Assembly: GCF_000025525.1 (NCBI RefSeq)
Contig: NC_013887.1
Location: 940,729 to 1,004,728, forward strand
Direction: 5' to 3'
Source: Methanocaldococcus sp. FS406-22
GTDB taxonomy: Archaea; AGJL01; Methanococci; Methanococcales; Methanocaldococcaceae
Length of the DNA stretch: 64,000 nt
Positions within the stretch are counted from its first letter, which is position 1. Every line of letters starts with the position of its first letter. Of the stretch, positions 6,065-50,774 are shown in pieces. Made by a program: the position numbers and the translations under genes. The notes under the pieces are model-generated. The model saw nothing but the letters and a program-made list of their open reading frames with translations, was not told the DNA's origin and searched no databases.

Positions 6065-6995
6065 ATGGATGAGGTAAAAGTAATTGAAATAATCAAAAAA
6101 ACTCTAAAATTTTCTAATGAAAATATTGTAAAAGGCATTGATGATGACTGTGCAGTTATAAAAATTGATGAAAATTTTTATTTAGTTGCTACAACAGATA
6201 TGATGGTTAAAAAAGCCCATATTCCTTCTATCTTATCCCCATACGAAATTGGAGGGAGAATTTTAACTGCGAATGTTTCAGATATTGCATCCATGGGAGC
6301 TAAACCATTGGCATTTTTAATATCAATATCTCTATCTAAGGGAGAAGCTAATGAGAATTTTATTAGAGAGCTTTATTCTGGCTTAGATGATTTTTCTAAG
6401 CTTTATAACTGCCCAGTAGTTGGTGGAGATACAAATAGAGGAAACGAGCTAACATTATCAGGAACTGCTTTTGGAATAACTGACAATCCTATATATCGGG
6501 GAGGGAAAATTGGAGATGATATCTGTGTAACTAATGATTTAGGTAGGGTTTATTGTGCTTTAACTCTATATTATATGCTTAAAGAGAACAAAATTAGCTA
6601 TAGAGAGTTTGAAAAACTTTGCCAAAAATATCCAAAGATTATTGAAAAATTAAGAAAACCTCTTGCAAGGGTTAAAGAAGGATTATTAATGAATAAACTC
6701 ATAAATGGTTGTTGTGACATCTCAGATGGTTTAGGAAAGGAAATAACATATTTCAAAAATTTTGAGATATACAGTGATAAAATTTTTAAGCTTATTCCAG
6801 ACGATGTTATTGAATTTTGTGAAGAATTCAACCTAAACCCAATAAAAGTAGTTTTAAATAGTGGGGAGGAGTTTGAGCTTTTATTTACAACATCCAAGTT
6901 TAATAAAGTGAAAGATTCACTAAAAGGTTATTCAAAGATTTATAAAATTGGTAAAATTATAGAAGAGGGGCAGTTTATTGATGGAGAGGAGTTTT

Positions 6996-7024
<29 letters not shown>
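6065..7024 (+). CDS. thiL: Thiamine-monophosphate kinase ThiL
   Basis: ATP-dependent kinase converting thiamine monophosphate to thiamine pyrophosphate. The 319-residue frame has the ThiL/PurM fold signatures: GIDDDCAVI near residue 24 (Mg/ATP-binding aspartates), LVATTDMMVKKAHIP, the NVSDIASMGAKPL stretch and VVGGDTNRG near residue 119. The DISDGLGKE motif follows the middle. The start follows GAAGGGG. The last 29 bases overlap the archaeosortase-like gene in another frame, which suggests one operon with the genes that follow. Confidence 0.92.
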
Positions 7025-8298
<1,274 letters not shown>

Positions 8299-15702: not shown

Positions 15703-17427
15703 TTATATTTCTTTTTTAATTTCAATATTTCCTACTTTACTATTTTCGTCTATAATAATTTTTGCTCCATTTTTGTTTTTCTCATCTATGATTATATTTT
15801 CAACATTTGAGTTAGTTATTTCTATTATTGCTCCCCAATTCATTCTTTTTACATGCAAAGTTGTAATATTTGCATTATTTATGTAAATAACTGCATCATA
15901 TCCCATATTTCCATTAATCGTGAGTTTGTTAATTTTTGAATCACCTATAATTAATGTTGAATCTGATTGCATACCTTTTATATAAACCTCTGAAATCTCG
16001 CATCCGTCCCAAATATTTAGTGTCGAATATCCTTTTAAACTATCAGATATCCTTAACTTACTAATGTCTGAAGAGGATATATACATATATGCATTTCCTT
16101 CAACTCTATTTATGCAAAGATTATCAATTTTATTTTTGATAAGGTCTAATATAGCGTATCCTTTTATTGAACTAATATACATATAATCAATTGTATCTTC
16201 TTGACACATAAAGTAACCATTTCCTTCAATATGCTTTGTAACTTTTATAGTATTTACCTTAGAACCCTTTAATTCTAACCAACTATATCCCTTGATACCT
16301 TTAATTTCTAGTGTTCCTATTTCTGGAACTTTAATATGTGTCTCAGAATTTCCTTCAGGTGTTAAAGTTAAGGCATTTATTGAATAAAGATTACCGAGAT
16401 ATAATTTTGAATTCCCATTAACTTTTATTTTCCCGCTAATTGTTCCATTTACATTATATTTACCTACTTTTCCACCACCTTTTATTTTCTCATTAATGTT
16501 TCCAGAAATATATTTTCCGCCAGAAATAATATCTTTTGTAATTTCTCCAAATGCATATCCCCCTATGTATATTTTTAAGTCACTGGCAATTCCACTGTTT
16601 ATCTCTTTATTTGCATCTTCATGTCCATGATGTCCATGTCCTTTAGTTATATTGATTTCCACACTTATCTCATTGTTATTTTCATTTGATTCATTTACTG
16701 AGTTATATTCATCCACTACGATTTTAATTGTATGCTCATATATTCCTCCACCACAGCCATGATGCTGATATTGTTGCTGAGAGTTTGCTCCATGGTTTTG
16801 GTATTGATGCTGATTTTTGCAACCTTTTGATGTTGATATTATATAGTTGAATATAACAGATGTAGTGTCATTTACTCCTAAACCAGATATTGTCTGTTCT
16901 GCTACTTTTTCATCATTGTCGTATAATGCTACTACAAACTGTCCTGCCGATGCATTACCCACATTTTTTATAACTGTAGATATCTTCACTTGGGTATTAT
17001 TTTTACAGCACCCATGTCTGAACTGATTTTGTAGTTGCTGATTCTCTCCACTATTTTGCACATGCTCTTTGCAGTAATGGCAAATTTTAGTTCCATTGGT
17101 GTAGGCAACTATTAAACTTATCGGCGTTAAGTCGGGAAGTTCTTGTTTATCTTGAGGGGTTGATTGCTCTTCAGTTTCATTGGTTTCATTTGTTTTAGGC
17201 TGTGGATTACTGTCATTAATTATCGTGTCGGAATTAGCAGAATCAAATTTTGCTTCTGTTACAAATGCCCCCATTGATTCTTTTTTAATATTTGAAGCTT
17301 CATTTCCAAGGAATTTTGGGCTTTGCTCAACTAATCCCATAGAAACAACAGTCCCTGCAACCATCAAACCTAAAATCAATAAAATAAACTCCAAAGAGAG
17401 TTGTCCCTTTCTTTTAGTGATTATCAT
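15703..17427 (-). CDS. Class III-signal pilin-like protein with His/Cys/Gln-rich region and beta-helix tail
   Basis: 574-residue predicted surface protein. The N-terminus TKRKG|QLSLEFILLILG is a class III (EppA-processed) pilin signal with a Q-x-S-x-E motif and hydrophobic helix. Residues about 100-270 form a CARDB-like beta-sandwich interrupted by unusual patches: ICHYCKEH, RHGCCKN, a Gln/His-rich segment with HHGCGGG, and GHGHHGHED. These look able to bind metal. The C-terminal half repeats short strand-turn units (for example YISSIKGYAILDL, YMYISSSDISKLRIS), as in a right-handed beta-helix or bactofilin-like stack. ATG chosen five bases after GGGTGG. Transcribed away from the + strand pilin operon. 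Possible adhesin, filament tip or metal-binding surface factor. Confidence 0.75.
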   Translation of the reverse strand: MIITKRKGQLSLEFILLILGLMVAGTVVSMGLVEQSPKFLGNEASNIKKESMGAFVTEAKFDSANSDTIINDSNPQPKTNETNETEEQSTPQDKQELPDLTPISLIVAYTNGTKICHYCKEHVQNSGENQQLQNQFRHGCCKNNTQVKISTVIKNVGNASAGQFVVALYDNDEKVAEQTISGLGVNDTTSVIFNYIISTSKGCKNQHQYQNHGANSQQQYQHHGCGGGIYEHTIKIVVDEYNSVNESNENNNEISVEINITKGHGHHGHEDANKEINSGIASDLKIYIGGYAFGEITKDIISGGKYISGNINEKIKGGGKVGKYNVNGTISGKIKVNGNSKLYLGNLYSINALTLTPEGNSETHIKVPEIGTLEIKGIKGYSWLELKGSKVNTIKVTKHIEGNGYFMCQEDTIDYMYISSIKGYAILDLIKNKIDNLCINRVEGNAYMYISSSDISKLRISDSLKGYSTLNIWDGCEISEVYIKGMQSDSTLIIGDSKINKLTINGNMGYDAVIYINNANITTLHVKRMNWGAIIEITNSNVENIIIDEKNKNGAKIIIDENSKVGNIEIKKEI

Positions 17428-17528: not shown

Positions 17529-18404
17529 TTATTCGATTTTTTTGGTGTAATATGTCACATACTTCCCATTAATCCAACTATTTTTTATGATTATAGTTAT
17601 AGGATTATTTCCAGAGTAATTGTTAAAATCAGGATATCCCTCAAGATTATCAATTTCACTATTTTCAATTGTGAGTATTATCTCTCCAGAGGTTCTTTCT
17701 AAATTATTAATGTCAAACGTTGATATATTAGTGTTAGATATATAAATCTCAGCATCTGTTTTCTTACCTCCTCCACTAATTTCAAAATTTACTCCATCGA
17801 CACCTTTGATATATTTAATGTCTCTAATCGTAATTATCTGGGGTAGTGGAATTCCCTTTACAATAAATTTCACATATATGCCTTCAGGGATTATTTTAAC
17901 ATTGTATATTTCCAGAGTATGTTTTCCCTGAGCCCAAAACTCAATATTTGGATAATCTACCACACCATCTACAAAATAGACTATATATTTTTCATCAGGG
18001 CTACCTTTAGGTTTAATTATTAGAGTATTTCCCCCCCGAGTTGTAATATCCACATTATCCGTATATCGGATATCTCCATAAGAGTTGTAATCTAAATTTG
18101 ATGGAGGAGCCTCACCAACAAATAGAATTCTTGCAAATCCTGAAATATTGTTGGACTCATTAACTAACCCTGAACTTTCGTTATTTGGGGTTGTTGTATT
18201 TGTAGTGCCTGATATTGCGACATTTTCAATACCATTTATCGCTCCAAATCCTTTATATGTTATTTTTTTAGTACTGTATGTTGAATTTCCAAGAAATTTA
18301 GTAATTCCTGCTGAATTAGCTACGTAGGATGATACAATCACTCCAATTAATATAATTCCAAAAATTAAAAGTATAAATTCAAGTGAGATTTGGGCTTTCT
18401 TCAT
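17529..18404 (-). CDS. Class III-signal pilin-like surface protein
   Basis: 291 residues starting MKKA|QISLEFILLIFG, a canonical class III pilin signal with cleavage before Gln. The ATG follows GGGGTGA by five bases; the longer upstream frame is hydrophobic leader translation without a ribosome-binding site. The body is Asn/Thr-rich with several N-x-S/T sequons and alternating strand patterns resembling the tail of the adjacent 574-residue protein, so both may come from duplication. It lies head-to-head with the + strand pilin operon, separated by about 150 nt of AT-rich promoter. Confidence 0.72.
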   Translation of the reverse strand: MKKAQISLEFILLIFGIILIGVIVSSYVANSAGITKFLGNSTYSTKKITYKGFGAINGIENVAISGTTNTTTPNNESSGLVNESNNISGFARILFVGEAPPSNLDYNSYGDIRYTDNVDITTRGGNTLIIKPKGSPDEKYIVYFVDGVVDYPNIEFWAQGKHTLEIYNVKIIPEGIYVKFIVKGIPLPQIITIRDIKYIKGVDGVNFEISGGGKKTDAEIYISNTNISTFDINNLERTSGEIILTIENSEIDNLEGYPDFNNYSGNNPITIIIKNSWINGKYVTYYTKKIE

Positions 18405-19008: not shown

Positions 19009-19022
19009 ATTTGGTGACCATT

Positions 19023-22000
19023 ATGAAAATTTTAAAGCTTCTAATGCCAGTAATTATCCTTATTGCAATCTCAATGGTAAATGGTTATATTATTGTTATA
19101 CATCCCAACACTATGAACATAACCAACAGTTCTGGAGTTTATAATACAAATTCCAGTATTATTGCATACAATGTAAACGACACTTTAACATTTGAAGCTT
19201 TAGCTCCAAATTCTGTAGCTCAGGATATACTAAACAATGGGGTTGTTAAGTGGGATTTCGGTGACTTGAGTGAGACGAATTATGGGTCTAATAAAATAGT
19301 TACTCATAAATATACATTTCCATTTCCTTACCCAGTAGCATGGTGTGGCTATCTAAATAATACAGGATATTCAAAAGCTTTAACTTACAATTGGCTTGTT
19401 GTTGGAGATGTAGCAAACACTAAATATATATTCAACGGTAGTCCTTCAAATTCAAAAACAAGTTGGGATGTTTATTATAATGCTTCAAATAACACTGTTG
19501 TAATAAAATACTATTCAGAAACTACAGTAAACACTGAATTTAATGGTTTAAGTGTAGACACAACTCCAGTGATTGTAAATGTCAGCAGAGATGATATTGT
19601 AGAGGGGGATACTGTTAAATTTAATTTTTCAGTTAGTAGAAATATAATATTCTGTGTGTGGAGTTTTGGAGATGGAACATTTTCTTTTGAAAGGTCTCCG
19701 GAGCACACGTATAGTGAAGCAGGATTTTACTACCCAAGAGTTTTGGTTATTGACGATTCTGGAAGGGTGATGGTTGGTTATTTAGATGAAGGAATTAAGG
19801 TAAATAGACCAAGAGGAGGATATATATACTGGGTTACTGGCCCAAGCCACTATAATGGGGAGGCATATACTTATGTTTATAACAGCTCTGGAGACGATAA
19901 CGATAATAGGGGAAACGCCTACACTAATCCATACAAAATAACCTACAAAGTTAATGACACTATAAAATTCGAAATGAGTGGAGCTTGGGGATTATATTGG
20001 AAGTGGGATTTTGGAGATGGAACAGAGACAGCTTATACATTTAAATCATATTTCACTCCATCATATCATCAATATAAATTTCCATTTATGTGGCCGTTCT
20101 TTTGGATGAGTTATGGAGCAGGAAGTTGGTGGAAATCAGATACTTTAAACTTCATAGTAGTTGGTGATGTGGGAAATACAAGATATAATTTTTATCCTTC
20201 ACCTACTCATGATAAAACTTCATATGATTATGAATATAATAGAGAAAACCACACTGTTAATCTATACTATTACTCAGATGTGATTTCAACACCAAAATTA
20301 AATGTAAAATTAAAAGATGGGTATTACATTGATATAACAGCGACTGCTGATAAAACTGAAGTTAATGTAAATGAAAATGTTAAATTTGACTGCTCTCCTT
20401 ATGGGAATCCAATATTTATAATGTGGTGTTTTGGAGATGGAACCTGTTCATTTGAAAAAAGTCCTACTCATAGATATTCTTCACGTGGATTGTATTACCC
20501 TCACGTGCTTATTGTAGATGAAAATGGAAATATTGAGGTTGGAATCCCCCCACCAATTGGAGTGGGAGGTTACAGTAGCTATCCTCAAATTTATGCTTCT
20601 CCTACAATAGCACCTACTAATTATCCAATTAATATAACAATAGTCGAGCCTGTATCATGGACATACTTATGGCACCATATATATTTTGGAGATGGTAGCA
20701 GTACTTGGATAAAACCTAAACGTTCTCCTTATACTTTCAATCATATCTATACTTCAGAAGGGGTTTATCAAATATATATGAGTGTATCTACTGCACAAAA
20801 CATGAAAATAGTATATATAATTGACAATAGAAACCCAATAGCTAAACTCTATGTTTATCCAAATCCTGCAAGTTATAAAGATACCATTGTATTTAATCCA
20901 ATAAATAGCTACGACCCAGATGCAGGCAGAGCTATTCCAGAATATAATTACTATGGTAAGGTAATTGGATACTATAATATACCCTCAACCTCTCCAATGG
21001 CAAAAATTTATGGATTCAATTTAACAGTTTATGATTCCTCTGGAAATATTGTATGGAATTACTCATCAAATGAATTAACCACCATATCTAAAAGTTTCCC
21101 TATAGGGAATTACACTGCCAAATTAGTAGTTTGGGATGGAATGGGGGGAATTAACTCAACAACTGTTAAGTTTAGTGTAATAAATAGACCACCAGTAGCT
21201 CAATTTAAGTATTATCCAAATGTTCCTGAACCTAATGAGGATGTAACATTTGTTTCACAATCTTACGACCCTGAAGGTGAAATTGCATATTATACCTGGA
21301 ACTTTGGGGATGGGACGGTTGTTAATACTACAGAATCAATAATACACCATAAATATACAAATCCAGGTTACTACACTGTTACTTTAACCGTCTTTGACAA
21401 ATATAATGCAAGTGCTTCAATATCTAAACAAATATTAGTAGCTGGGATATTAGCTAACTTTACATATGAAATAAATGGTAGCACTGTAAAATTTGAAGAT
21501 AAGTCATATGTAGCTCCTGGAAAAATTGTTAGCTGGTATTGGAATTTTGGAGATGGTAGTACATCAACGGAACGAAATCCTATTCATACATACAATAAGG
21601 AAGGAGCATATTTTGTAACCTTAACTGTTAAAAGTGATACAAACTTAACAGATAGTGTAACAAAGATTGTTATAGTCTCACCTACTCCAAAATATCCTCC
21701 AGTTGCTGACTTTACATATATAATAAATGGAACTACAGTAGAGTTTAATGCATCTAAATCGTATGATAAAGATGGACATATTGTCGAATATATCTGGAAC
21801 TTTGGAGATGGAAATATAACAACTACAACAAGCCCTATTACAATTCACAAATATGAAAAAGAGGGAGTATATGCAGTTACTTTGACAGTTATAGATAATG
21901 ATGGGCTTTCAGATTCAAGAACTAAATTAATAAATGTAGGAAAATCGTTCATTCATAGTGTCCCAATACCGCCATATATTGAAATATTAGTTATTATTTC

Positions 22001-22043
22001 AACATTGTTCTGCTTCTTACAAATTATAAGGGGATTAAAATGA
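19023..22043 (+). CDS. Giant PKD-repeat surface protein with C-terminal PIP-like sorting tail
   Basis: About 1006 residues. An N-terminal signal peptide ([21 protein letters not shown]) is followed by at least seven PKD-type beta-sandwich repeats, recognised by F-G-D-G cores: [56 protein letters not shown] and [10 protein letters not shown]. The end is [28 protein letters not shown]: a short Pro motif, one hydrophobic helix and a basic tip, the architecture of archaeosortase substrates. The ATG at 19023 lies five bases after GGTGA; TTG 19011 is weaker. Many N-x-S/T sequons suggest glycosylation. The stop overlaps the next pilin gene (ATGA), and an archaeosortase follows two genes on. Confidence 0.85.
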
Positions 22044-22267
22044 TATTTAGAAAAACAACATCTAATAGGGCACAATTATCTTTAGAATTGGCGTTATTGT
22101 TGGGAGTCATTGTAGTTGTAGCGTCTATGGTTGGATTTTATTATCTAAAATCAGTTACAAGAGGTTCTACAACATCAGAAAGTATTTCAAAAAATATAAC
22201 ATTAGTCGCAAAGAATAAGGCATTGGATATCATATATAAAGTTAAGAGGGCATTGAATGGGCAATAA
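22040..22267 (+). CDS. Small class III pilin subunit
   Basis: 75-residue protein with a textbook class III signal, [21 protein letters not shown], leaving a mature peptide of about 64 residues. That is the size of methanococcal major pilins, which are among the smallest known. The mature tail is Ser/Thr/Lys-rich ([13 protein letters not shown]). It overlaps the end of the PKD gene by four bases and the archaeosortase start by eleven, so translation is coupled. Good candidate for the main structural subunit of a filament to which the PKD protein belongs. Confidence 0.8.
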
Positions 22268-22721
22268 AAACATCATATACATAATTAGATTTTTAATATA
22301 TTTTTTTATGTTTTATTGTATCTTAAAAATGTTAGAAGGAAGTATAATGGATTTATTAACAATAGCTCTTTCCAAACTTTTAAATTTGAATTTTTACAAA
22401 AATGCAATTATTGTAGGGAATGGTATTATAGAAATTAGCTCACCATGCACATGTTCGTTAGAAATGGCTTTATTTTTAGGTTATATATTTGGAACGCCAG
22501 GTGTTCCTGTTAAATATAAAATCTCATATTCAGTATTGGGGCTTTTAATTATCACTATTTCGAATATTTTGAGGATAATCTTAATAATACATTATTCAAA
22601 TATATTGAATTATAACATTGTTCATGATGTCATAAGCTTTATTATCTTTCCAATAGCTTTGCTGCTAAACTGGCTTTGGATATATTTATTAAAAATAAAG
22701 AAAATAATCATGTTCAAGTGA
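22257..22721 (+). CDS. Archaeosortase of the surface operon
   Basis: 154-residue multi-pass membrane protein with the archaeosortase triad: Cys64/Cys66 in SSPCTCSLE, Arg106 in NILRI and His123 in VHDV. It is shorter than many family members but has the core helices. It is embedded between a pilin gene and a DUF2341-type pilin-like gene, two genes after a protein bearing a Pro-motif/helix/basic tail. The simplest reading is a dedicated transpeptidase for that tail. Similar methanogen systems have been named by family (for example ArtD with PIP-CTERM); the exact subfamily here is my inference. The start ATG lies inside the preceding gene with no strong ribosome-binding site. Confidence 0.8.
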
Positions 22722-22729
22722 GGGATAGG

Positions 22730-24586
22730 ATGTTTAAAAAAATTATCTCAAAAAGAGGATATATATTCACTTATGAGGCAATAATAATTGCCTTCATCTT
22801 CTTGAGTATTTTTTATATAGGGTACATGGTCTATAGCCATAATATGCTCACAGCATTAGAGGAAAAGAAAGATACTGAAAAGTTCCATAAAGCATTATTG
22901 CTAAAAGACTTTTATTTAAAAAAATATGAATTTCCTGGAAACTATAACAGTAGTTATATAGAGAACTTTACCAAAGAACTGAATATTGAAGAAAAAACAT
23001 TTGATCCGATAAACAACTTCAGTGAAGTGAATGGTAGTTTTTACTATATAATATATCCAAATATCTACGATGAAATGTTGGATAATATAAGTGGAGAGTA
23101 TAACAACTTTTCATTAAAGAAGATAACACTCGAATACAATGATAGTGGTAAGATTATTGATTATTATATATATTCAAATGTATATAAGAATTACAATATT
23201 CCGAGTAGTTTTACAAATGATGTAGTATGCTTTAAAGAAAACCTCTACATTCCAAAAATAACTGGTGTTAGTCATGGAACTTCTTTATATCTTTATGGAT
23301 GTAATGGTGACCATATATACTTTAAAGTTGATAAACCAGTTGTTTCAGCATCTGCAAAAATTATTATAAAGAATAAAAATCCTTTTATAAATTGGGAGAA
23401 TTGGAAGTATGCATCCCCTATATTAATAGTGAATAGTTTAGATACTCCTTTACAGGATTATGACGTAAAAGTGGTGTTTGATTCTCAAACATATATAAAA
23501 GAAGGAGAAATGAGAAACGACTGTGGAGATGTAAGATTTGTCGATGAAAATGGAAATCCTTTAAGTTATTGGATAGAGCCAAACACTATAAATACAACCC
23601 ATACAGTAGCATGGGTAAGAGTGAATTTAGGTCCAAATGAGCATAAAATAATTTACATGCTTTATGGAAATCCAAATGCAGAATCAGCTGCCGATGGAGA
23701 AAATACTTTCCCATTATTTTTCGATGATTTTTCAGAAGGAAACTTGAATAAATGGAATCATAACTTCAACAACCCACTGTTTATAAACGACACTTATGAA
23801 AATGGAATAAACTATACATATTTAAGTTTGGATTACAATTATTATAACCCTGAAAATCCTAACGAATATGAGTTTTATATTGCAACGAAGTCTCAGTATC
23901 CAACAAACTATTCGGTAAGATTCCGTGCAAATTTCCACAAAAGATATGAAGAGTGGGGAGGGTTCTATTATGGGGATAATAATAAGTTTAATAGAGAAAT
24001 TATATCAAACTATCACTGGGGAGGAGAATGGCTAAGGGTTGAATCTTCAATATGGGATCAGGATCATATTAGTTATATAGTTCTGCAGAATCCAGATTTG
24101 TATGGTAACTGGCACACTTATGAAATTCAAAGAAATGGAGGAAGTTCAGTTAATTTTATAATTGATGATAAAATATATAAAACAATATACTCAAACATAT
24201 ACACATTGGGATGTAATGTATCATTTTATGCGAGAGAGTATGATAGCACTACAAAGTATGGATACTATCCTGTTCCTGAATCTGAACAGAATGGAAATAT
24301 AAGCATTGATTGGGTGTTTGTTAGACCATATTATGAACCAGAACCAAATGTAACTTTATTATCATCTAATGTAGTATTTTCCGTAAATGGATACGTATAT
24401 GAAAAACCATTAACTTCAATTCTTAAGCCTATAGATATAACTCCAAACTTAAAAACGGGAATAAATGAGATAAGGATTCTAAGTTCTCCACTACCTGTAG
24501 AATTTTTAATAGAGACTGCTGAAGAAAGTAATTTTTACTATGTAACTTTAGCTCCTGAAAATGTCACCATTATGGTGAAACCATGA
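22730..24586 (+). CDS. Pilin-like protein with DUF2341-type lectin-like domain
   Basis: 618 residues. The N-terminus [26 protein letters not shown] is a class III-like pilin signal with Tyr at +1 and Glu at +6, followed by a long helix. From about residue 225 the motif [11 protein letters not shown]...[23 protein letters not shown] and [27 protein letters not shown] is typical of DUF2341. It is followed by FFDDF and a concanavalin-like sandwich (KWNHNF...YLSLDYNYY). ATG 22730 is preceded by GAGGGATAGG; the longer frame starts inside the archaeosortase. Suggests a carbohydrate- or surface-binding minor pilin. Confidence 0.78.
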
Positions 24587-25128: not shown

Positions 25129-26742
25129 ATGTACTTCTCACAAAATGCAATAGTTTTAGTTATGCTAATGTTTGTAATATCTTCGGTGTTCTATGCAACT
25201 ATCAACTACAAAACAAAGGCTATAGAAGATGAGATGAATATAAAAAAAGAAAGTTTATATGAGAAAAATTTAGTTAATACTTTAAATAGGAATATAGATA
25301 AAATCGTTGAAGATGCCTTTGTGAATGCAAGCTATACGATAATGAAAGAAAGGAAGTTTTTTGACAATTCCTATGATGCAATTATGTATATAACTACATA
25401 TATAAAAAATGGAATAAATAAATCATTAGAATGTGTAGATGAAAAATCATCAAACATATCTTACAATGTTACGTCTGTTAAGATTTATCCAACTGGTGAT
25501 CCTTTACTCATACACCTTTACTGTGAGGTGGATCTACAATATAAAAAGAAACTAAATAATGGGGAGTTAATTGCCTTAAAACCTATAACTATTGACAAAG
25601 ACATAAAATTATCAAGAATTCCAGACCCTTATGTCTATTTGAACAAGTTTTATTATGTATGGCATAATGCTGTAACTGTAACGTTAACTGGATTTAATGA
25701 TAACGACTATCATATATTTTATATAGAATTAAATAAATCTAATTTCCACTATGACCACATGTATAATCCTCAATCACATACAGAGTTGAGAGTAGTGGGA
25801 TGGAATTCAACAAGTAGTAGATGGAATATTGTCTTACCATATTGGGTACAAACGTGGAGAAAAGGTAGTGATGAAATTTCTATAATATGGGTTAGAGCAA
25901 GTAGAAACGAACTATTTAATGGAAATCAACTAAAAATTTTTTACAATTCTACAACCCCAATTGATAGGCAAAATCCCGATGCAACGTTTATATTATTTGA
26001 CGATTTTGATTATTTCAATCCAAATGTATGGGATTCTGTTGGAGAGTTTTTAATAAACAATAGTAACATTACAGTTATAGCTGGGGCTGGGTCAAGTGTA
26101 TATACAAAACAAACTTATGGAACTGGATATGAGTTAATGTTTAGGGCTAATTTCACTCCAGTTCATGCTCAGGTAGTTGGGTTTTTTACTCCGTTGAGTG
26201 ATACTAATGGTATTGGATGGGAGGTATATGATTGGGGAAGTGGTGCTAAACTATATACAAGAGTCAATAATACTGACGAAGGGTTAAGTGAGGTTCCAAA
26301 TGGGGATAAATATCTAAACAAATTTTATATTTATGATATACTTAGAGACAAATTAGATGGGGATATCACTTTTTACATATTAAATGATACACTAAATCCC
26401 GAATATACTAAAACGTATACTGCTGTAGATAACAGAATAAATTACCCAATATCTATAAATGCACTTCCTCCATCTGGAGAAACATCAAACACCAATGTTA
26501 CAGTAGATTGGATACTTTTAAAAGACATAAACAACATAGAAGTTCTAAATATTGGATCTGAAGAAAGTGTAGATTATTATAAAGAAGAAAAACCAAAAAC
26601 TTTCACTGGAACTATATACTATGGAAACCCCGCCCAATACACATTAGTTTATAATGGTTCTTACTCTATAATCGGTCTATATACAAATAAAACAGATAGT
26701 TGGGGTTCAGTAGGTTATAAGCCAATTATAGAAGAAAACTAA
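25129..26742 (+). CDS. Pilin-like protein with DUF2341-type domain, last gene of the surface operon
   Basis: 537 residues with an N-terminal hydrophobic helix (NAIVLVMLMFVISSVFYATI) and a pilin-like amphipathic helix after it. A DUF2341-like region follows, including VRASRNELFNGNQLKIFYNST and TFILFDDFDYFNPNVWDSVG, and then a lectin-like sandwich (YGTGYELMFRANF). The C-terminal PKTFTGTIYYGN... forms a last strand set. It is paralogous in layout to the 618-residue protein two genes upstream. AAAGGGG is its ribosome-binding site. The operon ends here, facing metE tail to tail with only two bases between the stops. Confidence 0.75.
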   Translation: MYFSQNAIVLVMLMFVISSVFYATINYKTKAIEDEMNIKKESLYEKNLVNTLNRNIDKIVEDAFVNASYTIMKERKFFDNSYDAIMYITTYIKNGINKSLECVDEKSSNISYNVTSVKIYPTGDPLLIHLYCEVDLQYKKKLNNGELIALKPITIDKDIKLSRIPDPYVYLNKFYYVWHNAVTVTLTGFNDNDYHIFYIELNKSNFHYDHMYNPQSHTELRVVGWNSTSSRWNIVLPYWVQTWRKGSDEISIIWVRASRNELFNGNQLKIFYNSTTPIDRQNPDATFILFDDFDYFNPNVWDSVGEFLINNSNITVIAGAGSSVYTKQTYGTGYELMFRANFTPVHAQVVGFFTPLSDTNGIGWEVYDWGSGAKLYTRVNNTDEGLSEVPNGDKYLNKFYIYDILRDKLDGDITFYILNDTLNPEYTKTYTAVDNRINYPISINALPPSGETSNTNVTVDWILLKDINNIEVLNIGSEESVDYYKEEKPKTFTGTIYYGNPAQYTLVYNGSYSIIGLYTNKTDSWGSVGYKPIIEEN

Positions 26743-44171: not shown

Positions 44172-47100
44172 ATGAACTTAAATAATTTCTATGAATCTAC
44201 AATCAATGGAGTATTTTTCCAATATTGTTTTGAAGCTGGTTTATTATATAAAAATGCTAAGTGCTATGAAGTTGAGGGAGTAGGCATTTATGATGAGTAT
44301 TATGATGACTGTAGGAAATATTATAGAGGTCCAAAATCTAAATTAGATGTGAAATACTATTCCAACATACTACAATTCTATAAAGATTTGGATTATCACA
44401 CTACAACGTTCAAATCTATAAAGGATGTGATAGAAGAGAATTTAGAAGATATATTAAAAGATTTTAAAAAATATTATTCTACTAAAGAAAGCTCATTCAC
44501 GGAGAAAATCTCAAATGCTAACGAATTAATTTCTAATTTAGAATATACAAATCTGTATATTATTTTATACTCCGCCTTACATACTTCGATGGTATTTATT
44601 GAGGCAATTAATAAACATTTCCCAAACAAAAATTTAGAAATATGGTGTGATATTGGGATTAAAGATGATATTGAATACTTAAAACCAGATATTATAATTG
44701 TGGATGAAGATGAAACTGAAAATGAAGCTAAAAATTTTTTAGCTGTTGGGGACTTAAAAGCTCCAAAACAACTCTTAAATGCCTTAAATATGGGAGATAT
44801 ATTTAACGAAAATATGAATTTGATAACAGTTAATGAAGGAAAATTTTTGGAAAAACTACATATCCCAGAATACGTTACTCCATCTCATTTTATGCATATT
44901 GCCAATACTCAAAATAAACTCTTTAAAATTATGAGATACGCTAAAAAACTCAAAGTTCAAAAAATCTATTGGATTACTCCACTAAAAATATATTACTATG
45001 ACAATAGTGATAAATTACAATATGAATTGCTCAAATTTCATGAGGAGCTTATTAACAAATTATCAAAAAATGAATATTTTGAACGTAATGAGCGTTTTGG
45101 TATTTTAGATTATAAAAAACATCTTAGTAGTGGAGATTACTACATTAAAAAAGAAGACGGGAAATTAATTATTGGAAATGATGTCATTGGGTATATAAAA
45201 GAATATAAGGGTTTTAGCAAAATAAAATTAAAACCTTACAAAATTCGTTCTGATGAAGCAACTTTGTTATTATCAAGAGGTTTCCATAGATATAAATTTA
45301 GTGAATTGTTAAATAGTGATGATGATATTATAATAAATGCTTCAGGGCAGGGAGTTGGTAAGAACTCTGTTTTAGAGGATTACTTAAAAAGCACTAATGC
45401 CAAAATATTATTAATCACTCCGAGAAAAATTATCATCAATGAGATGTTTAATAGACTAAATGGTCTAAGAAGAAATAACGATGAAAAACTCAAAGTTGCA
45501 AAGTGTTATAGAAAAGAGAGATTAGAATTTACCACCAAAAACAGAGTTCATGCATATAAAATCTATGATGCAGAGAATAGTAGTGATAAGTTCTTTAAAC
45601 TTATATCTGAAAATTATGATGCCATATTAACAACTTCACAAACTTTGAGATTTATATTAACAAAAATTAACCAGATAAACACAGAAATTAAATATGTAGA
45701 TGATTTAAAAAATAAATTAGAGTATAAAAAATTAAAAAATAGATTATTCGATGCCGAGAAAATGTTAGCATATAAAAAATTTTTCCAATATTTTGATTTG
45801 ATAGTTATAGATGAATATTCTGCCAATCCAGATGATGTCAAATCATCAATTTTAGAGTTAATTGTTGTCTTAAACGAACTAAAAAGAGCATTTCCAGAAG
45901 AAAAATTTGCTAAAATTGTTATAACAGATGCAAGCTTAACGGACTTAGAAGGTTTTGTAGATCAACTACAAAGATTTGTAAAGAAATATAGTAATGGGGA
46001 AAGAGTATTTTATGATAAGATAACGATGGATGTTAAACCCAACTTATATACCACTATCAAAAGAGAAGATATTACTATCAACGGCAACGAGATTTATGTT
46101 GAAGATATTTTAATAAATGATTATTTAAAAAAGGAAGAGGATATTACCACTATTAAAAACAAAATAACACAGAGCACCAAATTACAATATTACCACAATA
46201 ATTTTGAGATAGATAACTTATCAATTTCAGTGTTTAAAGTGCATTTTAAACTACCTTTAACTTTATATATCCACAATAGTGAAATAGTAGAGGTTAATAG
46301 GAAAGAGGATTTATTGGAAAAATTTGCTAAGAAGATTATTGAACACTGTAAAAATACTTTAAAAGATAGGTTTGATGAGGCAATATTAAATGGGGAGGTA
46401 GTGTTTTATTGTGATAATATAATGCTATGCGATGTTTTAGAAAGAGAATTAATTAAAGAGTATGGTAATAGGGATTTGTTTGTTGTATTGCACTCTCAAA
46501 CTGATGCTGAAAGAATTACAAAAAAATTAAAAGATAAAGATATGAAAATAAATATTATTGGAACGTCATCTTTAGCTTATGGAGTCTCATTAGAAAAGCA
46601 TAAATTTTTGTTTATAATCCCACCATATCCAGAATCGGGATGGGAATCCACATTTTATAAAGATGTTAGACACATTGAAAAGATAAGACAGGTTATAAAT
46701 AGACTGAGAGGGTCTAAAATAAAAAGTGTCTATATTAACGCATTGGATTTTATATTTTGTGATGAAAATGAAGATAAGAATATAAAAGTTAGATATAGGT
46801 ACTATGACATTAAATCAACGTTTAAAAATATTATATTAAATGATAATGTTGTTATAAAACCGCAATGTGTGTATTTACCTTTACAAACATGGAACAGATT
46901 GTTATTCAATAATTATGATAAAAAATCAGAATATAAGTTGCTAAGCTCATACATTTTTGCAGTTGAGTTTTTTGCACAAATTAGAAGTGCATTATTACAG
47001 TGTGGTTTCAAAGTTAATGATTTCGTAAATGTAAATGTGAAGGATTTGTCAATACTATCTAATTTATATTTAGTAACTTCACCAATGCTTACTCCATTTC

Positions 47101-47783
47101 AGATAAAGAATATAAAATTGTTTGTTGGTTATGATGCAGTCGGAGGAATAGTTCATTTAAAAAGGTTAGTCGATTATTGTTTATACATATTAAATGAATG
47201 TTGTGAAAATCCAGATTTAACAATGCCTAAGGGAATATCACTATTAGCTTACGTAATTCTGAAAGAACTAAATGTTAAAGAATGTAAAGATGGAGATATT
47301 AAAGTAAATTTAGATGGGAAAATTAGATTATATAAAAAAGCTGAAATTCATAAAATCATTGATGAAAAGTTTAAGAGCAGTAAGTTGAATGAGAAAGATT
47401 TTGTTAATGACATTTTATCTAAAGTATATAGGGAAGTTTTGAAAAATTGTAATATTATAATGACATTATATCTATTTAATGCATTATTCGATGATAAAGA
47501 GTTAGTTTCTGAATTATACCCATTTATGCATGCTTTAATACCACCATTATTGAATGTGGATGTTGGAAATTGTATAAACAAATGCATTGTTAAACTAACT
47601 ATTGAGGATAAAGATTTTGATGAACGTAAAAAAAGTATTGGTATTTTGACAACACATCCATTACTATCGAGAAAAGACGATAAATTGGTAATGAAATTGA
47701 TAAGAGAGATTTGTTATACACATTGTATTTGTGAAAATCAACTTCCAATACCGAGATTAAATAAGTTAGTTGAGTCTGGCTAA
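44172..47783 (+). CDS. Nuclease-helicase fusion: PD-(D/E)XK domain plus SF2 helicase
   Basis: 1203 residues. In the N-terminal 250 residues, a PD-(D/E)XK-like site is visible (KPDIIIVDE, Asp173; AVGDLKAPK, Asp194 and Lys196). The helicase core has Walker A SGQGVGKNS (Lys397), motif Ia ILLITPRKIIINEM, Walker B LIVIDEYS (Asp547-Glu548), a TDAS motif III, and a C-terminal RecA domain with HSQTDAERI, GTSSLAYGVSLEK (motif V) and QVINRLRGS (motif VI). The remaining 350 residues are a helical domain of unknown type. Start after GGTGGTGATTT. It ends four bases from the convergent split gene. Nuclease plus helicase plus an unknown partner suggests anti-plasmid/virus defence or a plasmid-type replication origin protein; neither is shown. 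Confidence 0.8.
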   Translation: MNLNNFYESTINGVFFQYCFEAGLLYKNAKCYEVEGVGIYDEYYDDCRKYYRGPKSKLDVKYYSNILQFYKDLDYHTTTFKSIKDVIEENLEDILKDFKKYYSTKESSFTEKISNANELISNLEYTNLYIILYSALHTSMVFIEAINKHFPNKNLEIWCDIGIKDDIEYLKPDIIIVDEDETENEAKNFLAVGDLKAPKQLLNALNMGDIFNENMNLITVNEGKFLEKLHIPEYVTPSHFMHIANTQNKLFKIMRYAKKLKVQKIYWITPLKIYYYDNSDKLQYELLKFHEELINKLSKNEYFERNERFGILDYKKHLSSGDYYIKKEDGKLIIGNDVIGYIKEYKGFSKIKLKPYKIRSDEATLLLSRGFHRYKFSELLNSDDDIIINASGQGVGKNSVLEDYLKSTNAKILLITPRKIIINEMFNRLNGLRRNNDEKLKVAKCYRKERLEFTTKNRVHAYKIYDAENSSDKFFKLISENYDAILTTSQTLRFILTKINQINTEIKYVDDLKNKLEYKKLKNRLFDAEKMLAYKKFFQYFDLIVIDEYSANPDDVKSSILELIVVLNELKRAFPEEKFAKIVITDASLTDLEGFVDQLQRFVKKYSNGERVFYDKITMDVKPNLYTTIKREDITINGNEIYVEDILINDYLKKEEDITTIKNKITQSTKLQYYHNNFEIDNLSISVFKVHFKLPLTLYIHNSEIVEVNRKEDLLEKFAKKIIEHCKNTLKDRFDEAILNGEVVFYCDNIMLCDVLERELIKEYGNRDLFVVLHSQTDAERITKKLKDKDMKINIIGTSSLAYGVSLEKHKFLFIIPPYPESGWESTFYKDVRHIEKIRQVINRLRGSKIKSVYINALDFIFCDENEDKNIKVRYRYYDIKSTFKNIILNDNVVIKPQCVYLPLQTWNRLLFNNYDKKSEYKLLSSYIFAVEFFAQIRSALLQCGFKVNDFVNVNVKDLSILSNLYLVTSPMLTPFQIKNIKLFVGYDAVGGIVHLKRLVDYCLYILNECCENPDLTMPKGISLLAYVILKELNVKECKDGDIKVNLDGKIRLYKKAEIHKIIDEKFKSSKLNEKDFVNDILSKVYREVLKNCNIIMTLYLFNALFDDKELVSELYPFMHALIPPLLNVDVGNCINKCIVKLTIEDKDFDERKKSIGILTTHPLLSRKDDKLVMKLIREICYTHCICENQLPIPRLNKLVESG

Positions 47784-47787
47784 TTGC

Positions 47788-49065
47788 TTATTTATTATTT
47801 ATTAGCTTACCCCCACACAATAAACAAATTGCTTTTATTCTTTTTTCAACAGCATCTGGATTTATTATTCTTTTTAATCCAACTACTGATGGAAAGTCAT
47901 CGTCTTCTGAAAAGACATAAGTCATCTTTAAAATATTTTCTACAACATCGTTTAGAGTGCATTTCCAACGTGCAATTTGAGTGTAGATTCTATGTTTATT
48001 TTTAGCCCTAAGCACCCCTGCAATAAACATGCTGTTTAATCCTTCAACAACACAAAAATGTTTTTTATCGTCAGTCTTTTCATCACAACTGTAAATACTT
48101 TTTTCTAAAACTATATAAACATTTTTGTCTTCTAATAATTTTTTACCAAAATATTCTTTTATAATTGTATTAATGTTTTTAATCATTTCTTCTGCTTCTT
48201 CAATACCTTTAACTCTATAAACCTCTAATAATACATTTTTGTGGGGTTCAACCCATTTTTTTAATTTTTTCTTTGCATATTTGGATAGTTTTAATTTATC
48301 TCCATCTTCTTCCAATGGTGTTGGTATTATGATGTAGTTTAATTCACCATTTAACAAACTTTTAATTTCAAAATAAGCTATTTTTTCTGATTTTCCTTCA
48401 AACTCAAATTCCCTATTGTATTGTGTAATATAACATAAATCAACATTTTTGCATATATTATTAATTGCGAATTCATAAGGATATAAGGATGAGTATAAGT
48501 TTCTTTCCTTTGGCAAATATGATTTTTTGAATACTCCACAAATATTTGGAATATCATTAATTTTGTTATTTGCCATTGTAAGAACAGTAGGTATTGATAT
48601 AAGATACTTTTCTCTTTTTTTAACATCTTCCCCAACTTCAATATACACAAACGGATATGCTATATCCCCATCTTCATAGAGTTTAAACACATCCAATTTG
48701 TAGTATTTTCCATTAAAAGATTCAAATATATAGTCTAACTTTTTACATGCTTCATCTAAATTATCAAAACATTCATTGGCATAATTTAAAAACTCATTAA
48801 ATTTACTATTTGACTTATACCCCAATATTCCTCTATCATAATTTTCTAAAAATTGTATTTGAACTCTTTCACTACCTAAAATCTCCTTCATTTGATAGTA
48901 TAAATCGTGTATTGTGGTTTTATCGTTAGATTTCTTTGGTGGCAAATTAACAACAATGTAATAATGCTCATCGTTCTTCTTTATGCAATTGTAAATATCC
49001 AATGCCAAATATAGTGCGGCTATTGCAGTCCTCACTTCATCTATTTCTTTATTATCATTTATATG
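47788..49065 (-). pseudogene. C-terminal half of large accessory protein, separated by an IS-derived insertion
   Basis: 425 codons from CAT at 49065-49063 to TAA at 47788, continuing in frame from the upstream fragment ending at TAC 49406-49404. The open frame can be extended rightward only by reading into the inserted element (GEGFKPSALLKKLRPLGRRVC), which is not real protein. Visible content: FVYIEVGEDVKKREKYLISIP, FKKSYLPKERNLYSSLYPYE, FEGKSEKIAYFEIKSLL, NVYIVLEKSIYSCDE and FVVEGLNSMFIAGVLRA-like strands, a mixed alpha/beta domain with no motif I can name. A remote PIWI-like fold was considered but no catalytic residues stand out. It lacks its own start, so it is probably silent unless re-initiation occurs. 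Confidence 0.7.
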
Positions 49066-49403
49066 ACATACTCTCCGCCCTAAAGGGCGGAGTTTCTTTA
49101 GGAGAGCAGAGGGTTTAAAACCCTCACCCTCCATGGGTTGCCAAGCCCACTATCCCTACCCCTTTCGGGGTTCGGGACTACCTTTTCCCAACTTAACGTC
49201 CCCAGCGGTGGGATTTTCGAGACTGAAGTTTCTGCTTCAGGTAGCGAAATCTTTGATTTCGCCTGAATCCCACCCATAATAACGTGGACTGGGGACAATC
49301 GTTAGATTCTAACTTCGAATATATAAAAATTACGCTTGTCCCACCCACCTCCCCTAATTCATCACCGCCCTAAAGGGCGGTGCTTTCTTAGCGACAATTA
49401 ATG
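49066..49403 (-). mobile_element. Non-autonomous IS200/IS605-type element inserted in the accessory gene
   Basis: 338 bp with no transposase. On the minus strand it begins immediately after the tetranucleotide TTAC (49407-49404), a known IS608-type target. A subterminal hairpin CCGCCCTTTAGGGCGG is present near the left end (about 49367-49382) and again near the right end (about 49076-49091). No target duplication is seen, apart from CAT at both borders, which makes the exact edges ambiguous by three bases. The interior is a GC-rich folded stretch (about 49098-49300) that resembles the tnpB 3' end plus RNA-coding tail of such elements, including a remnant frame with EAETSVSKIPPLGTLSWE. Possible guide (omega-like) RNA remnant. 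Confidence 0.72.
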
Positions 49404-50774
49404 GTAAGATTTATAACCATTTTCGTATAATTTGGATATATCAATATAATATACATTAACTTCATCATAAAGTAGCTTACTACCAACCAATAATTCAAGT
49501 GCAAAATAATTAATGTGTTTTTCATTAATAACTGAGTTATTAAACCTTATATCGGCATTTATGAAAATAAAGTGTGCCTTTTTAAATTTATCTAAGGTTT
49601 TATCAATATAAAACCTACCTTTAGATTTTCGTCTATTGCTATCAAACATATATGGTGTATAATATTCACCCAATTGCTTCACAGCTTCAATAAATACTTT
49701 CTTACGGAGTGTCATTATTTCTTTTTGTAAATTCTTATTAACATTTTTATCAGATTTTCCTCCGTCCTCATTAGAGTTTATGCTCTCAATAACTTTAATG
49801 TATGCTTCTGCATAGTCGTCCAATACGGTTTTAATATCTTCATCACATAAATCTGTGTATGTAAAATCTTTGATAAGATTAGCAATATACATTTTAATCT
49901 CATCATCTCCATGAACATACATTTTTAATAGATAGTATAAAGGACCATATCCAAAACCTCCCCCATACAACCCAACGGACAATTTTATAGCATTTTCATT
50001 TTTATTTAATATTCTACCTATTTTTATTGAAAATGGTAGTGTTGGAGGTGAGTTTGCCTTGTATGTTTTCTTAAGCATTTCAAAGCTATCTTTTACTACT
50101 TTATCAACATTATTCTTGTTTTCATTAATATACTTTTTAATATATTCATCAACTAACACTTTATAATTTTTATAAATTTTATTATTTTTCCATTCTTTTT
50201 CATCTTTAATAATATTTTCATGCAACCATATTACAAATTCTACGAAATCTTTAACATCTTTATTGGTTATATTGTTAAGTTCTTTTTTTAGATGTTCTAA
50301 GGCTAATGACTCTAAATCACTAACTAAATCTTTATCAACTATTACTGTATTACATTTTGAAAGTTCAGATTGTTTCATTTTTTTATATTTAACTTTTAAT
50401 TCCTTTTTATGAGGATATACTTTATTTAGTTTATCAAATTCATCAATAACTAAGCTTATTGTACCAATTTTGTGAGTAGATAAAATCTTTTCAAACCTAC
50501 TATTTTTAAATTCGTGTTTAACAATATCTATAATGTCGTTATTATTATCTAATTTATTTAAATATCCAATCCAATTTACTATTAATTCTGGTATTATATC
50601 TTTATTAACAACCTTGCCTATCAAATCGTTAAATTTTGCAAATGGGAAGAGAAAAACCTCTTCACCATATTTCAATGAGTATGAATCTATTTGATTATCC
50701 AATTCTTTCAATAATTTTAACAATAACTTTTCATATTCCCCTCCAATAACAACCTTTCCGGTTGGACTTGTCAT
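49398..50774 (-). CDS. N-terminal half of large accessory protein (truncated by insertion)
   Basis: 458 codons from ATG 50774, with GGTGAAATT as ribosome-binding site, to a TAA at 49398 supplied by the inserted element. Up to codon 457 the protein is original. The region shows long helical stretches, a KSNSxxGxxKIG-like hydrophobic core (IGTISLVIDEFDKLN), a Gly-rich turn GLYGGGFGYGPLYYLLKM and a basic end (RRKSKGRFYIDKTLDKFKKAHFIFI). No known family recognised. Removal of the element would give an 882-residue protein ending at 47788. It is convergent with the nuclease-helicase. The truncated product may still be made. Confidence 0.65.
   Translation of the reverse strand: MTSPTGKVVIGGEYEKLLLKLLKELDNQIDSYSLKYGEEVFLFPFAKFNDLIGKVVNKDIIPELIVNWIGYLNKLDNNNDIIDIVKHEFKNSRFEKILSTHKIGTISLVIDEFDKLNKVYPHKKELKVKYKKMKQSELSKCNTVIVDKDLVSDLESLALEHLKKELNNITNKDVKDFVEFVIWLHENIIKDEKEWKNNKIYKNYKVLVDEYIKKYINENKNNVDKVVKDSFEMLKKTYKANSPPTLPFSIKIGRILNKNENAIKLSVGLYGGGFGYGPLYYLLKMYVHGDDEIKMYIANLIKDFTYTDLCDEDIKTVLDDYAEAYIKVIESINSNEDGGKSDKNVNKNLQKEIMTLRKKVFIEAVKQLGEYYTPYMFDSNRRKSKGRFYIDKTLDKFKKAHFIFINADIRFNNSVINEKHINYFALELLVGSKLLYDEVNVYYIDISKLYENGYKSYH

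Follow-up and report, generated by a model that had tools for sequence, protein, structure and literature searches.

What could a pilin-like surface protein do with dense clusters of histidine and cysteine? The question is raised by a gene of Methanocaldococcus sp. FS406-22 that lies in a stretch of 64,000 nucleotides of its genome (contig NC_013887.1, positions 940,729 to 1,004,728; hereafter the window). An initial annotation, made from the sequence of the window, placed five patches rich in His, Cys or Gln within a beta-sandwich of the 574-residue product, called their density unusual and proposed that they could bind metals or electron carriers at the cell surface. Here we ask where these patches lie on the protein fold, whether they occur in relatives and which function agrees best with their conservation.

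Results

Domain architecture and location of the patches

The gene is read from the minus strand of the window and its product starts MIITKRKGQLSLEFILLILG. The gene and the parts of its product are:

15703..17427, minus strand: gene for the 574-residue pilin-like protein with a class III signal (translation, Pfam)
17326..17427, minus strand: residues 1–34, class III signal peptide (KRKGQLSLEF) and pilin helix (PF04021, model)
17140..17325, minus strand: residues 35–96, low-confidence linker (model)
16642..17139, minus strand: residues 97–262, CARDB (Ig-like) domain with two insertions (PF07705, fold)
16996..17088, minus strand: residues 114–144, A-B loop insertion, KICHYCKEHVQNSGENQQLQNQFRHGCCKNN (alignment)
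16744..16824, minus strand: residues 202–228, E-F loop insertion, GCKNQHQYQNHGANSQQQYQHHGCGGG (alignment)
16615..16641, minus strand: residues 263–271, GHGHHGHED, straight after strand G (alignment)
15706..16602, minus strand: residues 276–574, C-terminal domain, beta-helix from about residue 331 (model, block means of pLDDT 75–98)

The class III signal peptide scores 26.7 bits with PF04021 against a Pfam cut-off of 23.7 and is followed by a hydrophobic helix at residues 12–34, which appears in the full-length model with low to middling confidence. From this signal we infer that the protein is located at the cell surface, and it is probably part of the Methanocaldococcus type IV pilus system. 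The two closest relatives diverge most strongly in residues 56–96 of the linker (29% identity).

That the patches sit within a beta-sandwich proved correct. PF07705 (CARDB) scores 46.4 bits against a cut-off of 22.7, and the fold matches the CARDB structures 3idu, 2l0d and 2kl6 (Z 10.9–11.6, the highest value to 3idu; rmsd 2.8–3.4; 106 residues aligned). Of these, 3idu and 2kl6 represent PF1109 of Pyrococcus furiosus and 2l0d represents MA_4588 of Methanosarcina acetivorans. All three share the fold, but unlike the 574-residue protein they have no insertions. Specifically, chain residues 20–71 and 75–106 of 2l0d match profile positions 52–104 and 136–167, which leaves no room for an E-F insertion (profile 105–135) and only about 20 residues before strand B. 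Short A-B and E-F loops are typical of the solved CARDB domains and of the other members that we read, and the 574-residue protein departs from this. The insertions mark a variant of CARDB and do not exclude the protein from the family.

All five segments named in the initial annotation are present: HYCKEH at residues 117–122, HGCCKN at 138–143, a Gln/His-rich run at 206–223, HHGCGGG at 222–228 and GHGHHGHED at 263–271. Four of them fall into the two CARDB insertions, HYCKEH and HGCCKN into A-B, and the Gln/His run and HHGCGGG into E-F. The fifth lies outside both, directly after G, the last CARDB strand. Residues 113–272 (160 residues) contain 12 His and 6 Cys, and 15 Gln against an expectation of about 2. 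The background composition, computed over 51 ORFs of 150 residues or more that were listed mechanically for the window, is 1.5% His, 1.3% Cys and 1.4% Gln. For a segment picked after the fact, 18 His and Cys in 160 residues against 2.9% give a binomial tail of 1.1e-6. The density is indeed unusual, being the highest for any 160-residue segment in the 51 ORFs, albeit narrowly: an ORF truncated at the start of the window reaches 17, compared with 18 here. The seven other ORFs of the genome with a class III signal, six of them short (68–149 residues), contain 0–1 His and 0–2 Cys each.

A wider survey of CARDB gave about a hundred matches in 30 of 36 genomes, and 27 of 30 loci could be read, one of them being the 574-residue protein itself. 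The 26 other translations read from these roughly one hundred listed matches have 0–3 His and 0–2 Cys, and insertions of the A-B or E-F type were found in none of the 26.

AlphaFold2 models were built with three sequences, for the CARDB domain alone and for the full length. The strands comprise residues 100–109, 139/145–155, 161–170, 173–183, 188–197, 230–239 and 253–260. In the domain model the block means of pLDDT are 85–91 for strands B to E and 58–67 for F and G; in the full-length model the CARDB strand blocks reach about 37–75 and the C-terminal beta-helix 75–98 from residue 331. Successive strands connected by short loops run in opposite directions, which should place the A-B loop, the E-F loop and the end of strand G at one pole of the domain. 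This pole would be opposite the entry of the linker and next to the C-terminal domain. Clustering of the patches, for which structure prediction had been proposed as a check, is thus supported by strand order, while the inserted loops themselves have pLDDT below 50 in both models. The best-ranked structures for the C-terminal part in VIA-align are GH87-type and related beta-helices (Z 12–14); these matches were taken to reflect a common beta-helix arrangement, and no catalytic role is claimed. No fold in BFVD matched at E 0.001 or below.

Relatives with and without the insertions

Within the genus, the whole-protein search matched 11 of 14 genomes. Six of these have the insertions (the source genome G000, G001, G003, G007, G008 and G013) and five do not (G002, G004, G005, G006 and G011); a model of the A-B insertion found no match in the latter. 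Behind the pilin start, the insertion-free versions continue with a PKD-type region, with beta repeats or with four plain CARDB domains. The insertions are therefore dispensable for the general function of this pilin. The protein with four plain CARDB repeats, with 2 His and no Cys, is encoded at the syntenic position in Methanocaldococcus G011 (L029:8377-9879).

Over 36 genomes of the order the A-B model matched seven at E 0.01, the six of the same genus and G022. The latter belongs to another family and has the class III signal together with both insertions. In all seven genomes the sequence next to the A-B insertion aligns to the CARDB domain of the 574-residue protein. With E up to 1 the model matched 12 of the 36; the five additional matches have E values of 0.16–0.9, several contain stops, and they are taken as chance. 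The searches at the order and phylum levels covered the same 36 genomes, and the phylum added none. In a wider genome collection the single-protein search gave no confirmed relative and the alignment search gave three loci, and no relatives were found in viral contigs and plasmids. Absence of the patches from all homologues, which had been named as evidence against the metal proposal, was not observed: both insertions occur in pilin-type proteins of six other genomes of the order. Our results indicate that the protein is a real, conserved variant of the CARDB pilin-type proteins. The insertions are probably a working part of it, to judge by their occurrence in the sequences of several relatives.

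Profile support differs among the seven proteins. PF04021 is above its cut-off in five of the six relatives and below it in G003 (19.1 bits). PF07705 is above its cut-off in three of seven (G000, G001 and G008), weak in G003 (17.4 bits) and G022 (11.1 bits) and without a match in G007 and G013. The assignment of CARDB in G003, G007, G013 and G022 rests on alignment to the 574-residue protein (38–53% identity over the region).

Conservation within the loops

Conservation was measured on an alignment of all seven proteins and on five representatives (G000, G003, G007, G008 and G022), with the close relatives G001 and G013 omitted. The best conserved stretch of the domain is the A-B core, with the consensus VQNxGExxxLxNxFRHG. 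Mean pairwise identity among the representatives is 0.62 for the A-B core (residues 121–139); strands B-E have 0.35, F-G 0.41 and the E-F loop 0.30. In the seven-row alignment the values are 0.58, 0.41, 0.48 and 0.37, respectively. The top 12 of 156 windows of 19 columns all start within residues 116–128. It is important to note that these values are biased in favour of the A-B core by G022, which was retrieved with the A-B model. Five residues, N125, G127, L132, H138 and G139, are invariant in all seven proteins. C141 is found in six of seven, C116 in five, and H117 aligns with a His in five. Most of the remaining His and Cys positions differ among the homologues, as do the E-F loops, which vary greatly in length and sequence.

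The enrichment itself persists. In each of the seven proteins, which include the close and hence not independent pairs G000/G001 and G007/G013, His and Cys are more frequent in the two loops than in the rest of the protein (odds ratio 6.6–20, p 1.3e-3 to 5e-8). This is true also of the E-F loop alone (p 0.03 to 4e-5, seven of seven), which was not used by itself for picking homologues; six of the seven proteins came from the whole-protein search. The motif CxxC occurs six times in four of the seven proteins, always inside the A-B, E-F or post-G patches. Three proteins have no CxxC at all and two have no Cys in the E-F loop. After strand G the 574-residue protein has HGHHGH where G007 and G013 have GCNNCNG (CNNC), and a counterpart of GHGHHGHED is present, in shortened form, only in the nearest relative.

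Mosaic structure of the gene

Identity between relatives changes sharply inside the gene at two pairs of loci, namely between 15703-17427 and L021 and between L027 and L030. DNA identity of G000 and G001 is 0.55–0.79 in the first part of the gene, up to about residue 222, and 0.85–0.97 from there through the neighbouring gene of 631 residues; the genes on the other side are likewise diverged (0.58–0.84). By segment, it is 0.75 in strands B-E, 0.90 in the E-F insertion and 0.97 in F-G, which places the change at or near the E-F insertion. G007 and G013 are 0.95–0.98 identical up to about residue 294 and 0.50–0.63 in the C-terminal domain, after which identity recovers downstream; the closest match to the C-terminal domain of G013 is the one in G008 (54%). 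Sharp changes of this kind inside a pilin gene suggest recombination, as far as can be read from the sequences, and the gene looks like a mosaic between close relatives. The insertions are nearly identical across the G007/G013 exchange and so do not depend on one particular C-terminal domain.

Repeated or mobile DNA was considered as a source of the insertions and rejected, because only short or imperfect repeats were found. No second copy of the A-B insertion was found in the own genome at E 1 with the A-B model. The A-B and E-F insertions resemble each other (QNxGxN ... HG), and we do not claim an internal duplication, since this shared motif is too short for proof.

Genomic neighbourhood

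Several other genes of the cluster lie close to the pilin gene:

17529..18404, minus strand: 291-residue protein with a class III signal (PF04021, 33.7 bits)
19011..22043, plus strand: PKD-repeat protein with a PIP-CTERM sorting signal (profile matches)
22257..22721, plus strand: archaeosortase D (TIGR04175, 6.8e-64)
22676..24586, plus strand: DUF2341 protein (Pfam)
25129..26742, plus strand: second DUF2341 protein (Pfam)

Makarova et al. (2016, PMC4858521) propose that in the clade 1 type IV pilus of Methanococci the DUF2341 proteins are adhesins of the pilus tip, and they regard class III-signal proteins outside the major pilin families as most likely minor pilins. The 574-residue protein shares the class III signal with these and has two DUF2341 genes nearby; it differs in having CARDB, which the main text of that paper does not mention. 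Together with these proposals, the content of the cluster makes a minor pilin or adhesin the natural reading. The genome has matches to PF06847 (prepilin-peptidase type) and to the secretion ATPase PF00437, both outside the window; none of its pilus assembly ATPase matches falls inside.

Other features of the window were noted in passing. With its PIP-CTERM signal, the PKD protein just upstream of archaeosortase D (19011-22721) seems to form a dedicated sorting pair with it next to the pilin genes, and no paper on archaeosortase with PIP-CTERM was found in the open-licence literature. Between these two genes, at about 22064-22144 on the plus strand, there is a short class III-signal frame (94-residue open frame). 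A second exosortase/archaeosortase-like membrane protein (6978-7517; PF09721, 7.4e-13) lies away from this pair. Three large ORFs at 44172-50774 (1203, 448 and 458 residues), the first helicase-like by eye, possibly belong to an integrated element, and a 999-residue ORF at 56213-59212 resembles by eye a fused restriction-modification enzyme (NPPYE motif).

Discussion

Our best explanation, which we hold tentatively and at slightly less than an even chance, is that the protein is a modular minor pilin or adhesin with a conserved head, rich in His, Cys and Gln, at one pole of CARDB, most likely metal-binding and used for attachment. The N-terminal helix, behind its recognised signal, would anchor the protein in the filament or the membrane, and the CARDB domain and the beta-helix, whose folds come from the models, would project outward. 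The two insertions and the stretch after strand G would together make up a head at one pole of CARDB, rich in His, Cys, Gln and Asn. His and Cys from neighbouring loops may bind a transition metal or a metal-bearing surface, which is the most likely chemistry for such a head. The bound metal might also hold the loose loops in place at high temperature and secure the joint where CARDB meets the beta-helix. Attachment to a surface or to other cells would be the likely job, as suggested by the architecture of the protein and by the DUF2341 and PKD surface proteins encoded nearby. CARDB domains have been described as adhesion domains in an earlier report (PMC5244752).

How good is the case for metal? 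Binding by the loops is plausible. A metal site is favoured by the exchange of ligands between HGHHGH and CNNC after strand G, by the confinement of CxxC to the patches and by the invariant H138. It is weakened because most His and Cys are variable and the other invariant residues (N125, G127, L132 and G139) are not typical ligands. A weak profile match to TRASH (PF24273) covers about C116–K142 of the A-B region (E 0.019). TRASH domains bind metal. We rejected the assignment, as the score is 15.6 bits against a cut-off of 27 and none of the six homologues matches; this lack of reproduction and the low confidence of the loops weaken the metal site further. G008 matches a zinc ribbon weakly (E 0.0072; 16.5 bits, cut-off 27), and profile searches with the other five homologues gave no match to any metal domain. 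The proposal of metal-binding patches is supported in part: the His/Cys-rich insertions recur in six genomes, and no family of metal sites is reproduced across the homologues. A precedent for metal on a CARDB domain, leaving aside its place on the fold, is 3idu, which is titled as being in complex with di-metal ions. A PDB search with the A-B insertion alone gave a single match (E 1.7). In the open-licence literature no paper was found that combines a class III signal peptide with histidine richness; for histidine-rich or metal-binding archaeal pilins it offered only work apparently on haloarchaeal metal resistance, and for Methanocaldococcus with CARDB only work apparently on acidophilic archaea.

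Given the variable Cys and the invariant Asn, Gly and Leu, the main rival is a recognition loop pinned by disulfides. Disulfides C116–C141 and C203–C225 might pin the bases of the loops, the partner being a glycan, a pilus subunit or a cell, and His would be incidental. We regard this as possible, though doubtful. In its favour, the two Cys that bound the E-F loop come and go together, being present in G000, G001, G007 and G013 and missing in G008 and G022; G003 has Cys near both ends of this loop, off the aligned positions, and the A-B loop has Cys near both ends in five of seven proteins. The most invariant A-B residues, next to H138, are Asn, Gly and Leu. Makarova et al. (PMC4858521) also expect disulfides from the conserved Cys of pilus-system proteins in Thermoproteales. 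On the other hand, the A-B pair is incomplete in G003, which lacks C141, and in G022, which lacks C116, and neither H138 nor the high content of His and Gln is explained. Moreover, hydrothermal fluids are reducing, which we also count against disulfides. Taken together, the loop head is probably either metal-binding or disulfide-pinned.

The loops could also be variable surface decoration under diversifying selection, for example through recognition by viruses or partners, in which case the richness in His and Cys would be low-complexity drift. The turnover of the E-F loops agrees with this, and so do the shifts of identity, at or near the E-F insertion in one pair and just past CARDB in the other. 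Among known archaeal proteins, the hypervariable Ig proteins called VARTIG, described from Thermococcales (Makarova et al. 2021, PMC8416519), share an Ig/CARDB-type domain and exchange by recombination; those are large proteins of variable islands, whereas here we have a pilin-type protein with a single CARDB. Decoration would not lead one to expect an A-B core more conserved than any other part of the domain, or enrichment kept by all seven proteins despite turnover of sequence, and we consider it unlikely. A role of the patches in electron transfer or in the binding of redox carriers at the surface found no support and is very improbable. Its only basis is the content of His and Cys and the occurrence of CxxC in four proteins, while the haem motif of c-type cytochromes, CxxCH, is absent from the protein, its six relatives and every open frame of at least 100 residues in the window, and a single CARDB domain provides no repeated array.

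A more specific version of the metal-binding head can be imagined, in which it grips metal or metal sulfide and the protein is a mineral-specific adhesin that holds vent methanogens to chimney walls, with exchangeable beta-helices tuning the target. We see this as a long shot.

Conclusions

If the metal-binding head is real, it would be a new way in which the common CARDB fold can be given a binding site. Should the loops be plain disulfide-pinned recognition loops, they would still be a useful marker of a mosaic adhesin. Methanocaldococcus villosus has been observed sticking to black smoker material; the authors ascribe the contact to flagella and describe the recognition of solids by archaeal cells as unclear (PMC5871681). 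Our data show no tie of the pilin with a His/Cys-rich loop head to M. villosus or to minerals; it is a concrete, testable further candidate for such contacts with solids.
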